The notes beneath the pieces were generated by a model. The model saw only the letters and a program-made list of their open reading frames with translations, ran no database searches and was not told the DNA's origin. Positions 26,913 to 38,121 of a DNA stretch of 64,000 nucleotides are shown in pieces. This DNA is from Planctomycetota bacterium (GTDB lineage: Bacteria; Planctomycetota; Planctomycetia; Pirellulales; Pirellulaceae). Location: assembly GCA_027622275.1 (NCBI GenBank), contig JAQBZB010000008.1, positions 1-64,000 of the forward strand. The letters run 5' to 3'. The translations under genes were made by a program, and so were the position numbers. Position 1 is the stretch's first letter; the number at the start of each line of letters is the position of its first letter.

Positions 26913-28037
26913 TCAATCTGACTCGATCCAGCCACCGCCGAGTACACGATCACCGTCGTAGCAAACGACTGCCTGTCCGGGCGCGATCCCGAAGGGAGCT
27001 TCGTCGAACTTGACGTGCAGACGCCGGTCGGCCAACACTTCAGCCGTCGCTGGCACGGCGGGTGCGTTGTAGCGGATCTGAGCATCGCAGCGAAACCGCC
27101 CGGCGGGCGGATCGGCCAGCCAATTCGTGTCGGCTGCCGTCAACTCGTCTCTGGCCAATTCATGGCGCTCGCCGATGACAACTTGCCGGAGCGCCGCGTC
27201 GATTCGCGTCACAAAGTACGGCTCGCCCATCGCGACGCCGAGCCCCTTGCGTTGTCCGACGGTAAATCGCTCGATGCCGGTATGCTCGCCGACAACTCGG
27301 CCATTTGTCGTGACGATCTCGCCCGCCGTGTCGATGCCGGTGCGACGTGCGCGGACGAATTCGTCGTGCTTGCCGCTGGTGACGAAGCAGATTTCCTGGC
27401 TGTCTTTCTTTTCGGCAACATTCAATCCCAAGCCGCTTGCGATCTCACGGATCTCGGACTTCTCATAACCGCCGACCGGCAGCAGCATCCGCGACAGGCA
27501 GCGTCGCTCAATGCCGAACAGGACGTACGATTGATCCTTCGAATCGTCGCTGCCTCGACAGAGCCGAGGTAAAACCTCGTCCGTCGACAGCAACCTCGCG
27601 TAGTGCCCCGTCGCCACAAACTCGGCATCGACGCTGTCCGCATAGTCGAATAGCTTCCCAAACTTGATCCAGTTGTTACACATCACGCATGGGTTCGGCG
27701 TGCGGCCGACGGTGTATTCGTCGACAAAGTAATCGATGATCTGCCGGAACTCGGCCTGAAGATTCAGGGCGTAGAACGGAATGCCCAGCCTGTCGGCGAC
27801 GCGCCGTCCGTCTTCGGCGTCCGACGCGCTGCAGCAGCCTTGTTTGTGGTCGGCACGGTTGTTCAGCAGCGGCAGCAGCGGGCTGTTGGCTTGGCTGCCG
27901 TCGACCGAACACGCCTCGACCGCTTCCTCGCCGTGCCGCATGAACACACCGATCACTTCGTGTCCTTGCTCGACCAGCAAATGCGCGGCGACACTGCTAT
28001 CAACACCGCCAGACATGGCCAAGACAACACGCGACAT
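26913..28037 (-). CDS. mnmA: tRNA-specific 2-thiouridylase MnmA
   Basis: This 374-residue enzyme thiolates U34 of Glu, Gln and Lys tRNAs. The PP-loop is at the N-terminus (AMSGGVDSSVAAHLL). The catalytic Cys pair lies in NPCVMCNNWIKFG and DSQEICFV, and the C-terminal beta-barrel ends GQAVVCYDGDRVLGGGWI. An insert of about 25 residues after the first strand (containing LLPLLNNRADHKQGCCSA) is of a type seen in some relatives. It follows the TGA-containing redoxin gene by 54 bases and is probably co-transcribed. It converges on the NtrC-type gene with a 6-base gap. Confidence 0.95.
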   Translation of the reverse strand: MSRVVLAMSGGVDSSVAAHLLVEQGHEVIGVFMRHGEEAVEACSVDGSQANSPLLPLLNNRADHKQGCCSASDAEDGRRVADRLGIPFYALNLQAEFRQIIDYFVDEYTVGRTPNPCVMCNNWIKFGKLFDYADSVDAEFVATGHYARLLSTDEVLPRLCRGSDDSKDQSYVLFGIERRCLSRMLLPVGGYEKSEIREIASGLGLNVAEKKDSQEICFVTSGKHDEFVRARRTGIDTAGEIVTTNGRVVGEHTGIERFTVGQRKGLGVAMGEPYFVTRIDAALRQVVIGERHELARDELTAADTNWLADPPAGRFRCDAQIRYNAPAVPATAEVLADRRLHVKFDEAPFGIAPGQAVVCYDGDRVLGGGWIESD

Positions 28038-28091: not shown

Positions 28092-28688
28092 TCAACGCTC
28101 GCCAACAATGTTACTCCCGGCGAGAAGCTCCAACTGCGCGATCAATTCTCCGTTGGTCGGCTGGTCCGCCGTGTGCTTCGGCAAGTGGATGTAGCGTAAG
28201 ACACCCGCGCGATCGACGATAAACGATCCATGCAGTTGCAGAACGTCCCCGACGGGTTTGCCGACCCCGGCTCGCAAGGTCGCCTTGAGTCCACCGGCCC
28301 AGACGGCTGGGCCGGCTACTTGCCAGACACTCGCGCGTGGAACGCCATACGCTTGGTAAGCGAGACGCTTAGGATCGGCCAGACAAACGAAAGGCAATCG
28401 GTTTCGGTCGCGGAAGGCGGCAGTCTGCTCGACCGATCCCATCGTAATCACGGCGACTTCGCCGCCAGCATCGAGGAACCGCTGGTAGTCTTCACGCACG
28501 TCGACCACGTGCTCGCGGCACATCGGTCAGCCGAAGTGGCGGACAAACAACAACACGCAAGGCCGCGACTGCCAGAGCGAAGACAGCCTAACCGTGTTCC
28601 CCGCATGGTCCGCGAGGCTGACATCTGGCGCCCGGTCGCCAACGGCGAGTGTCGTCTTCACAGCTTGTCTCGGACTATTCCTATTCAT
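28092..28688 (-). CDS. Peroxiredoxin-like protein, probable selenoprotein (UxxC)
   Basis: The frame from 28688 to 28092 gives 198 residues if the TGA at 28527-28529 is read through. The first half is a thioredoxin-fold start (VGDRAPDVSLADHAG, then CVLLFVRHFG). The TGA is codon 54 and is followed by PMCREHVVDVREDYQ. AhpC/TSA-like redoxins have FGCPxCRxH here, so TGA replaces the first active-site Cys, giving U54-P-M-C57. The rest is normal for the family (AVITMGSVEQTAAFRD, LADPKRLAYQAYGV, HGSFIVDRAGVLRYIH). A SECIS-like hairpin follows at the right distance. Without read-through the product would be a useless 53-residue stub. The start is uncertain: an in-frame ATG at 28802 also exists. Confidence 0.8.
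28496..28512 (-). promoter_or_regulatory. Candidate bacterial SECIS element
   Basis: On the minus strand GCACGT-GGTCG-ACGTGC forms a perfect 6-bp stem with a five-base loop GGTCG. Twenty bases lie between the TGA (28527-28529) and the loop. The loop core GGTC matches that of the well-known E. coli fdhF element, at almost the same distance from UGA. It would let SelB deliver selenocysteinyl-tRNA at codon 54. Confidence 0.65.
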
Positions 28689-29168
28689 GGCCGATTCTGC
28701 TTGCGTCGGTGTTGTTGAGCGGTCGCATTCCTTGTGCGGGTATGAACGAGCGATTTGGACTGCGGCGACTTGTCGCCGCTTTCCCTCTTGTGGCGCAGCC
28801 ACTTTCCAAGTCTTGCTGACCTTCCAGGATTAAAGCGGCCTCGCCGCAAACGAAAGCTGTGACAAGTCACAGCACTCCAAATGTCTGATTGGCACGCGCA
28901 ATGCTTTCGTTGGTATCCAGCATAACAGAGGACTCGAAACCGTTGGTTATCCGCCAACCGTGACTGCCTGGAACGACAACTTTACAATTTGCCAAAGATT
29001 GGGGTTGTAAAGATTTCAAAACCGAGTCACATTCTGGCCTCGGTTAGACGGAAGATTCTGCTAGCACGCGCCGCAGGATTTGGCTCGCGCCGGCGGCGGC
29101 AACAGGACGTTGCTGCTTGACGTTGTCTAACAATTCGTAAACGACTGATCGATCCACGGAGGGACACG
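28689..29168. other. Divergent intergenic region
   Basis: These 480 bases separate the leftward redoxin gene from the rightward thioredoxin-protease gene. The only clear structure is the palindrome at 28856-28873. The part around 28980-29020 is relatively AT-rich and may hold a promoter. No RNA gene was recognised. Confidence 0.5.
28856..28873. promoter_or_regulatory. CRP/FNR-like palindrome
   Basis: GCTGTGAC-AA-GTCACAGC has perfect 8-base arms with a 2-base centre. The half-site TGTGA is that of CRP/FNR-family regulators, although the spacing between TGTGA and TCACA is four rather than six bases. It lies about 170 bases before the redoxin start and 295 before the thioredoxin-protease start. 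Confidence 0.45.
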
Positions 29169-30584
29169 ATGGTCACTCTCAACGCGCTTGCACTCGTTGT
29201 CGCCCTGGCCGGAAGCGGCGAAACCGTCTTGCTCGACTTTACGTCGCGGTCATGTGGGCCTTGCCAAACAATGGAGCCGACGATCGGGCGGCTGACTCGC
29301 GATGGCTATCCTGTCAGACAGATCGACGTCGCGCAGCATCCGGAAATCGCCGCCCAGTTCCAAGTCACGGGCGTACCGTGCTTCGTCATGTTATCGGACG
29401 GCCGAGAAATCGATCGTGTTGTCGGCGCGTGCAGTCACGCCCGGCTTGTCGAGATGTTCGCCAACGCACAGCCCCAATCATCGAGCGCCGCACCCAACCG
29501 TCTCCGTCCGGCTTCAAACAACGATATCGTGCGGGCTCAATCGCCCGAATCGACACTCGTCGCCATAGCCTCTCCAAAGACGAACGTCGCCGACCCTCGC
29601 CGCCGTGCGTTCGACGCCACGATTCGACTTCGAATCGAAGACGCGGGCGGCCACTCGGTCGGCACCGGCACGATCGTGGATACGCATGGCGACGAAGCAC
29701 TGGCCATTACTTGCGGCCACATCTTCCGCGACTCGGGCGGGCAAGGCCGCGTCCTGGTAGACCTGTTTCCCGAGGGACAACCGCGCACCGTCGAAGGTAT
29801 CCTCATCAGCTACGACCTCACGCGCGACATCGGCCTGGTGAGATTCGTGCCGGGATTCGCTGTGTCGCCCGTGAGGATCGCCCCCGCCGGCCATCGCTTT
29901 GCCAATGGCGATGTCGTCTTCACCGTCGGCTGTGACAACGGTCGCGAGCCGAGCGTCCGAGACAGCCGGATCACGTCGATCGATCGTTATCTGGGTCCGC
30001 CCAACATCGAAGCGACCGGCGAACCGGCACAAGGACGCAGCGGCGGCGGCTTGTTCTCGCAGGATGGCTTTTTGATCGGCATCTGCAATCACGGCGATCC
30101 CAAGGACGACGAAGGGATCTATGCCTCGTTGCCAACGATTCACTGGGAACTCGACCGCGTCGGCCAACGACGGCTGTATCAGCCGAACGCCGAGGCACTC
30201 GCCATGCAAGGATTATCTCCCAGCCGAATCGAGCCGCGGCGGATCGGAGCGAATCCCGAGGCGACCGCTCGAACCGTCTCGCCGGTGGCCATGGCAAGCG
30301 CCACGCTAAAAGACGTCGCGAGAAGTGATCTCGCAAACAGTGACACCGAGGTCATTTGCATCGTCCGCTCTCGCGGCAATCCTCAGGCACAGGAGCGAGT
30401 TTACGTCCTGGAGCAACCGTCGTCTGAGTTACTGGACCGATTGGCGCGGGAATCGCGGGGGGCGATGACAGCAAGCCAAGTCGCCACGCGACACGTACGA
30501 CCAGTCACGCCGAGACCAAACTCGCTCCAAGCCACCGCGGCAGGCGAGCCAGTCGTTCGGGCGCAGTCAGCCGACGGCCGGTAG
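29169..30584 (+). CDS. Thioredoxin-trypsin-like protease fusion
   Basis: This 471-residue protein follows a GGAGGG site. Residues 10-105 form a thioredoxin domain with C29-G-P-C32 and a cis-Pro segment GVPCFV. A trypsin-like (S1) domain follows at about 155-340. His184 lies in TCGHIF, Asp220 in TRDIGLV and Ser291 in GRSGGGLF, giving a complete triad. The C-terminal 120 residues are low in complexity with no recognised domain. The N-terminus is only weakly hydrophobic, so export is uncertain. I infer a redox-linked quality-control protease. It stands as a single gene. Confidence 0.85.
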   Translation: MVTLNALALVVALAGSGETVLLDFTSRSCGPCQTMEPTIGRLTRDGYPVRQIDVAQHPEIAAQFQVTGVPCFVMLSDGREIDRVVGACSHARLVEMFANAQPQSSSAAPNRLRPASNNDIVRAQSPESTLVAIASPKTNVADPRRRAFDATIRLRIEDAGGHSVGTGTIVDTHGDEALAITCGHIFRDSGGQGRVLVDLFPEGQPRTVEGILISYDLTRDIGLVRFVPGFAVSPVRIAPAGHRFANGDVVFTVGCDNGREPSVRDSRITSIDRYLGPPNIEATGEPAQGRSGGGLFSQDGFLIGICNHGDPKDDEGIYASLPTIHWELDRVGQRRLYQPNAEALAMQGLSPSRIEPRRIGANPEATARTVSPVAMASATLKDVARSDLANSDTEVICIVRSRGNPQAQERVYVLEQPSSELLDRLARESRGAMTASQVATRHVRPVTPRPNSLQATAAGEPVVRAQSADGR

Positions 30585-36975: not shown

Positions 36976-38121
36976 ATGCGACTTGACTTGTGCGGCTTCA
37001 CCATACTTTTGTGCTACTTCGTGAGTACGGCAACCGCCGCCGAACCTCTCCCGGCTGCCTACACGATCCCCACCATCGACCTTGCCGGTCAGAAGCATCG
37101 CCAGGTCGTCGTCGATCGCGAGGCGGGACAATATCTCGGCCATCCGACGACGGTGATGTTGGAAGACAATAAGACGTTGCTGTGCGTCTATCCAAAAGGT
37201 CACGGCCGAGGAGCGATTGTCTACAAACGCAGTGACGATGCAGGGTTGACCTGGTCGGATCGATTACCGACTCCGGAGAGCTGGGCGACGAGCCAGGAAG
37301 TACCGACGATCCATCGCGTTGTCGACGCGGAAGGAAAGAAGCGGCTGATTATGTGGTCTGGTTTGTACCCGGCCCGGCTGGCCGTCAGCGAGGACGATGG
37401 CGCGAGTTGGTCCGAGCTGAAACCGGTCGGTGAGTGGGGCGGGATCGTGGTCATGGGCTTCGTTGGCAAGCTTCAACGGCCCGGGCGCTACTTGGCGATG
37501 TTTCATGACGACGGACGCTTCTTCACCGAGAACGGCGTTCGCCAGAATCCCGTCGAGTTTCGTTTGTACAAGACGTTCTCGAACGACGGCGGAGTGACTT
37601 GGTCCCCGCCAGCGATGATTCAGAAAGACGCGGCCGTTCATCTTTGCGAGCCGGGTCTGATCCGCTCGCCGGACGGGAAACAGTTCGCGGTGTTGCTGCG
37701 CGAGAACAGCCGGCGTCGCAACTCGCACGTGATCTTCTCCGACGACGAAGGCCTGACCTGGAGCGAGCCGCGCGAGCTGCCGGCGTCTCTCACCGGCGAC
37801 CGGCACACGGGAGTCTATGGTCCGGACGGCCGATTGTTCATCTCGTTCCGCGACACGACTCGCGAGAGTCCGACGAAAGGCGACTGGGTCGCGTGGGTGG
37901 GAACTTACGAGGACATTGTGGACGGTCGCGAAGGACAATATCGCGTCCGCTTGATGGACAATCACAAAGGTGCCGACTGTGCGTATCCGGCTGTTGAGAT
38001 TCTGCCCGATGGGACGATCGTGACCACGACGTATGGACACTGGGAAAAGGACGAAACAGCGTATATCGTGAGCGTTCGATTGAAATTGAACGAACTCGAC
38101 GAGATGCAGGCCGACAAGTAG
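36976..38121 (+). CDS. Secreted sialidase-like (Asp-box beta-propeller) protein
   Basis: This 381-residue protein follows a GGAGG site. It has a signal peptide (about 1-22, ending ATA) and four Asp-boxes of the S-x-D-x-G-x-(T/S)-W type: SDDAGLTW, SEDDGASW, SNDGGVTW and SDDEGLTW. These mark a six-bladed sialidase/neuraminidase-type propeller. An Arg near HRQVVVDREAG and FRDTTRES late in the protein could serve substrate binding. Planctomycetes have many such proteins, and sialic acid is not necessarily the substrate. Confidence 0.87.
   Translation: MRLDLCGFTILLCYFVSTATAAEPLPAAYTIPTIDLAGQKHRQVVVDREAGQYLGHPTTVMLEDNKTLLCVYPKGHGRGAIVYKRSDDAGLTWSDRLPTPESWATSQEVPTIHRVVDAEGKKRLIMWSGLYPARLAVSEDDGASWSELKPVGEWGGIVVMGFVGKLQRPGRYLAMFHDDGRFFTENGVRQNPVEFRLYKTFSNDGGVTWSPPAMIQKDAAVHLCEPGLIRSPDGKQFAVLLRENSRRRNSHVIFSDDEGLTWSEPRELPASLTGDRHTGVYGPDGRLFISFRDTTRESPTKGDWVAWVGTYEDIVDGREGQYRVRLMDNHKGADCAYPAVEILPDGTIVTTTYGHWEKDETAYIVSVRLKLNELDEMQADK

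Follow-up and report, generated by a model that had tools for sequence, protein, structure and literature searches.

An in-frame TGA in the active-site motif of a planctomycete redoxin: a predicted SelL-related, peroxiredoxin-like selenoprotein and its SECIS-like hairpin

The stretch of DNA analysed here (the window: 64,000 nucleotides of contig JAQBZB010000008.1, assembly GCA_027622275.1, from a Planctomycetota bacterium) contains a redoxin gene with an in-frame TGA at its active site. The locus raises the question of whether this codon is a sequence error, a true stop, a site of ordinary readthrough or a codon for selenocysteine (Sec). Judged by sequence comparison, the gene is almost certainly a genuine selenoprotein gene, and with very high probability encodes a SelL-related, peroxiredoxin (Prx)-like protein in which Sec would be inserted at codon 54 by means of a downstream hairpin and SelB. 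The features of the locus are as follows.

28688-28092, minus strand: gene of the predicted SelL-related, peroxiredoxin-like selenoprotein, 198 residues with Sec predicted at residue 54, assigned from the translation and from matches to NF040769 and PF00578
28688-28686, minus strand: start codon ATG, from the translation
28529-28527, minus strand: in-frame TGA at codon 54, predicted Sec, first position of a UxxC motif with Cys57 as partner; the codon is kept in close relatives
28512-28496, minus strand: bacterial SECIS-like hairpin with a 6-bp stem (GCACGT/ACGTGC) and apical loop GGTCG, recognised from the sequence, the same register in TGA rows and covariation
28094-28092, minus strand: terminal stop TGA at codon 199, the next in-frame TGA after codon 54, from the translation
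28037-26913, minus strand: mnmA, encoding tRNA 2-thiouridylase, 54 bases downstream of the redoxin gene (PF03054, 234 bits)

From the ATG, the frame spans 198 residues and contains a single internal stop, the TGA at codon 54. The initial annotation had described a frame open on both sides of this codon, and the flanking codons do read RHFG-[TGA]-PMCREH; the gene lies on the minus strand, a point left unstated there. Codon-position G+C (positions 1/2/3) is 0.58/0.51/0.72 before the TGA and 0.72/0.45/0.69 after it, and mnmA has 0.65/0.45/0.74. In profile searches the protein matches AhpC-TSA (PF00578) at 83.6 bits, with a cut-off of 26, and, with C substituted for U, the NCBIfam family NF040769 "SelL-related redox protein" at 139.5 bits, with a curated cut-off of 120, the latter alignment spanning profile positions 2-172 of 173. 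A plain stop-to-stop reading divides the gene at the TGA and lists it as two frames, and the gene is therefore easily misannotated.

Matches to the redoxin at E <= 0.001 are present in 184 of the 199 genomes of the family. The TGA is kept at codon 54 in two rows of the alignment from the same genus (78-79% identical) and in the next two rows, from other genera of the family (76% and 57% identical). The initial annotation had contrasted the TGA with a Cys codon in relatives, which needs qualification: the four closest rows besides the window itself, among the matches listed, all carry TGA, whereas the Cys-form rows examined share at most 48% identity with the redoxin and have the motif RHxGCxxC. 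Sixteen more distant rows have TGC or TGT at codon 54, and other distant rows again have TGA, so that the alignment at this codon, which the initial annotation had named as a check, reveals an exchange of Cys and Sec codons (16 Cys and 36 TGA rows examined). Compared with the three nearest rows, the sequence after the TGA has 23/9/68, 18/9/61 and 25/14/75 differences at codon positions 1/2/3; the two same-genus rows keep the residue in 118 of the 142-143 codons compared, and the differences are concentrated at third positions. This is the pattern of a translated protein, and codon 54 itself appears to be under selection. A tree of the 52 rows needs three Sec/Cys changes, just one of which is forced by its starred branches. 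With both TGA and Cys forms among its members, the family allows gain, loss and movement of the SECIS to be followed.

The hairpin had been described as a 6-bp stem with a GGTCG loop, at distances from the TGA of 14 bases for the stem and 20 for the loop, and these positions are confirmed. The published bacterial SECIS (bSECIS) model, as given in one review, calls for a loop of 3-9 nt, an upper stem of 4-16 bp and a G within the first two nucleotides of the loop, with a UGA-to-loop distance of 16-37 nt and a minimum free energy (MFE) of at most -7.5 kcal/mol (PMC13188914). Checked by hand and by script, the hairpin falls within all of these bounds (loop 5, stem 6, GGTCG, 20 nt, -11 kcal/mol), the energy being that of the segment 28517-28487, which adds two outer pairs. 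A stem at least as good appears somewhere after the TGA in 1168 of 4000 synonymous recodings, which is not significant, and at exactly the window's register in 4.1% of 20000. Dinucleotide shuffling gives folding z-scores of -0.84, -1.15 and -0.32, that is, no significant stability, and single-sequence folding was for this reason used for the MFE criterion alone. For a 50-base stretch containing the UGA (z -0.84), the preferred fold is a different one that pairs the UGA itself and would be expected to be unavailable to a decoding ribosome. An Rfam scan of 28380-28700 returned no SECIS family and two sub-threshold matches to unrelated families. Since recodings often reach an equal stem and the z-scores are low, the hairpin is weak evidence in one sequence; across relatives, by contrast, it is strong evidence.

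This comparison covers 36 TGA rows, namely 14 loaded automatically, 19 of 39 further listed ones (the 39 being a hand count), L056, and the paralogs L059 and L060 from the window's own genome. Left out of the helix count were L053, L054 and L055, which repeat L025, L024 and L026, and L057, in which the motif is missing. When either of two registers is accepted, 32/36 TGA rows and 0/16 Cys rows have a full helix (Fisher P 4.7e-10, relatedness ignored): pairing is complete in the window's register (loop at +20) in 17 TGA rows, and in a second register (AGTT loop at +25) in 15. Under synonymous recoding of the 32 helix rows, 1.5 would be expected to retain it. As the two registers were defined after inspection of the rows, the comparison was repeated with the register left free, and a helix of at least 6 pairs that obeys the loop and spacing rules is then present in 32/36 TGA rows against 3/16 Cys rows (L028, L029, L031; P 1.5e-6, relatedness ignored). 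Any stem of at least 6 pairs occurs in 33/36 and 6/16 rows, respectively.

The 14 automatically loaded TGA rows, which were not chosen for pairing, provide a control. The window's register is present in all of them, and 100% of their cells pair, against 12-41% in slid registers. Their covariation score is 0.350, compared with a shuffled mean of 0.128 and with 0/500 shuffles as high, and two of the six stem pairs change on both sides (GC, CG, AU and AU, GC, GU); the number of additional pair types does not reach significance (277/500). In the 17 rows chosen for pairing, the score is 0.413 against 0.094 after shuffling. Among the remaining TGA rows, L077, L079 and L080 form five of the six pairs in each register but no full helix, and L056, from Chloroflexi, has a differently placed hairpin; L082 is counted as a helix only with two G-U pairs.

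The second register characterises L064-L082 and L060, the first L023-L027 and L038-L052. L066 and L070 have the first register (GGT-type loop at +20) yet stand among the second group in the tree. It is a tentative suggestion that the SECIS moved by about 5 bases along the mRNA within the family, the protein remaining unshifted. On this doubtful reading, a GGU-type loop at +20 and an AGUU loop at +25 would represent the two positions, and the rows with 5 of 6 pairs in both registers a possible bridge. If true, the family would offer a natural case of SECIS hopping under a kept coding constraint. Separately, in the Cys-form row L028 (genome G019) a stem of 6 pairs with a GAT loop at +21 conforms to the rules, and that genome has selA and tRNA-Sec over the cut-offs; this stem could be a SECIS relic left after a Sec-to-Cys change.

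The genome that contains the window is a 9.78-Mb draft in 555 contigs, 96.2% complete. All of the components that the initial annotation had pointed to as a check on its reading are found there over their cut-offs: selA (567.8 bits, cut-off 267.9), selB (344.2 bits, cut-off 242.25), selD (276.5 bits, cut-off 125) and one tRNA-Sec (score 67, gathering cut-off 47), the anticodon of which is tca according to ARAGORN. The selA and selB genes share a contig and a strand and are about 3 kb apart, and between them are two small genes (L063, 7147-8108, minus strand, contig C170 of the window's genome, G000), one of them TIR-type-like by eye. SelD is fused behind an oxidoreductase-like N-terminal domain, assigned by eye, in one 768-residue frame (L021, 1321-3627, minus strand, contig C340 of the same genome); Ndh-SelD fusions have been described (PMC2398784).

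Across the family, selA is over the cut-off in 43/49 genomes with a listed TGA-form match and in 59/150 others (Fisher P 2e-9, uncorrected), the latter being a set that may include TGA forms beyond the matches listed. Four of the six TGA-form genomes without selA over the cut-off have a tRNA-Sec over the gathering score (G002, G063, G119, G151), and the other two, G102 and G168, have neither. Cys-form genomes have selA over the cut-off in 5/16 cases and tRNA-Sec in 2 of the six tested. The Cys-form genomes of genus g19 (G018, G080, G107, G123) encode a divergent SelA near the cut-off, at 255-280 bits. This SelA-like protein may have another role, because no tRNA-Sec exceeds the gathering score in G018, the one genome tested among these four.

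Sec insertion has to be weighed against other accounts of the TGA. That the redoxin is seen in one draft genome of 555 contigs would suit a sequencing or assembly error, in which the true codon would be TGC or TGT and the product an ordinary CxxC redoxin. However, separate genomes, both within the genus and in further genera of the family (57-79% identical), carry the same TGA with coding sequence after it, and a covarying helix would not arise from an error; a mistaken base is exceedingly improbable. No more credible is a decaying pseudogene, truncated at residue 53 by a true stop. The conservation of 118 of 142-143 residues after the TGA, with mostly third-position differences, argues against decay, as does the occurrence of this catalytic-site TGA in several genera, with Cys in its place elsewhere, even if TGA also serves as a normal stop here, for both the redoxin gene and mnmA.

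Readthrough of the UGA with an ordinary amino acid, Trp or Cys, would make the protein selenium-free. Sec insertion is a prediction here, and an in-frame TGA in a functional gene is in principle compatible with such readthrough, which is nevertheless very unlikely: the genome has the full Sec machinery with a UCA tRNA, the helix accompanies TGA and not Cys codons, the TGA forms are associated with selA, and homologs carry an active-site Cys at codon 54. The Sec machinery, the Cys/Sec exchange and the covarying, TGA-linked helix thus uphold the reading of the gene as a genuine UxxC selenoprotein, as the initial annotation had proposed.

After its terminal TGA the gene continues with CGC CGA TAG and a hairpin (GGAAGC/GCTTTC, loop GTCC at +18) that formally agrees with the bSECIS rules and is terminator-like; this region, from the TGA onwards, is 28094-28064 on the minus strand. 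In the two same-genus relatives the corresponding codon is AGC (Ser) or GAG (Glu), the frame runs three codons further to the shared TAG, and neither has a comparable stem. A second Sec at this position is unlikely, and the codon is read as an ordinary stop. Because the terminal TGA and 3/16 Cys rows also have conforming stems, the loop and spacing criteria are not specific when applied to single sequences.

The window's genome encodes two further AhpC-TSA proteins with a TGA at the same active-site place and a SECIS-like helix after it.

Contig C190 of the window's genome (G000), 37349-37657: sister redoxin L059, in-frame TGA, motif WUPFC, stem GCAGTT/AACTGC, loop GGTCG
Contig C335 of the window's genome (G000), 27480-27788: sister redoxin L060, in-frame TGA, motif TUPVC, stem TCGCGC/GCGCGA, loop AGTT

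The mnmA gene had been proposed as a further link to selenium, through conversion of its 2-thiouridine by SelU. A search for SelU/MnmH (TIGR03167) gave 0 matches in the 96.2%-complete genome, and the proposal is not borne out. The gene stands beside the redoxin gene in all three rows of the genus and was not found in the 5 kb to either side in L055, the next relative; most of the other loci offered about 1.5 kb of flank. As the SelU/MnmH match is absent and the adjacency is limited to the genus rows, the adjacency is no evidence of a further selenium pathway; on present evidence mnmA is not part of the selenium system. A separate gene at 29169-30584 (plus strand), divergent from the redoxin gene, encodes a thioredoxin domain (PF00085) joined to a trypsin-like peptidase (PF13365).

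An AlphaFold2 model of the redoxin, built from 20 aligned rows, has a mean pLDDT of 85.7 and a helix from residue 55, directly after residue 54. In a fold search the model best matches PDB peroxiredoxins of the Bcp/PrxQ and AhpE types, and the PF00578 domain together with the thioredoxin-like fold of the model places the protein in the AhpC/TSA peroxiredoxin fold. All 20 aligned rows have Cys at residue 57.

In the proposed mechanism, a ribosome reaching the UGA at codon 54 would meet the hairpin just downstream, which would recruit SelB with Sec-tRNA(UCA), and Sec would be inserted where translation would otherwise stop. The protein most likely ends at the in-frame TGA of codon 199. The resulting Sec54-Pro-Met-Cys57 would stand where the first active-site helix begins. 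Sec54 may then attack the substrate, for which a peroxide or a protein disulfide is the candidate, and Cys57 would resolve the intermediate to a selenenylsulfide, which a thioredoxin-like partner could reduce. By analogy with its family, the protein is most likely a Sec-accelerated thiol:disulfide oxidoreductase or peroxidase; insertion, chemistry and substrate are all inferred.

The redoxin passes the curated cut-off of the SelL-related family NF040769. SelL proper is a Prx-like selenoprotein with a UxxU diselenide motif. The redoxin, by contrast, has U54-P-M-C57 (UxxC), and by this motif it falls outside SelL proper. The classical Prx site is TxxC, and the UxxC active site of the redoxin differs from this as well. 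The best fold match, the Bcp/PrxQ fold (PDB 3hjp), has a TM-score of 0.71 by query and 0.88 by target and is 21% identical. A literature search for "SelL-related" selenoproteins gave no match.

Planctomycetes P1 and P2 from Porphyra are reported to have full Sec-insertion gene sets and predicted selenoproteins (PMC4807772). They also carry a 2-selenouridine synthase (PMC4807772), which was not found in the window's genome. Prx-like UxxC selenoproteins have been reported from the Sargasso Sea (PMC1088965) and from the GOS data (PMC2398784), and a "Prx-like thiol:disulfide oxidoreductase" is listed in reviews (PMC9312934; PMC13188914). The redoxin resembles these surveyed proteins in its PF00578 domain, its UxxC motif and a bacterial SECIS just downstream; the surveys split Prx-like proteins into several subfamilies, and the likeness drawn here is to the class as a whole. 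Prx-like UxxC selenoproteins are already known, and the redoxin is a further example, giving a large planctomycete-type genome a well-supported predicted selenoprotein together with two sister candidates.
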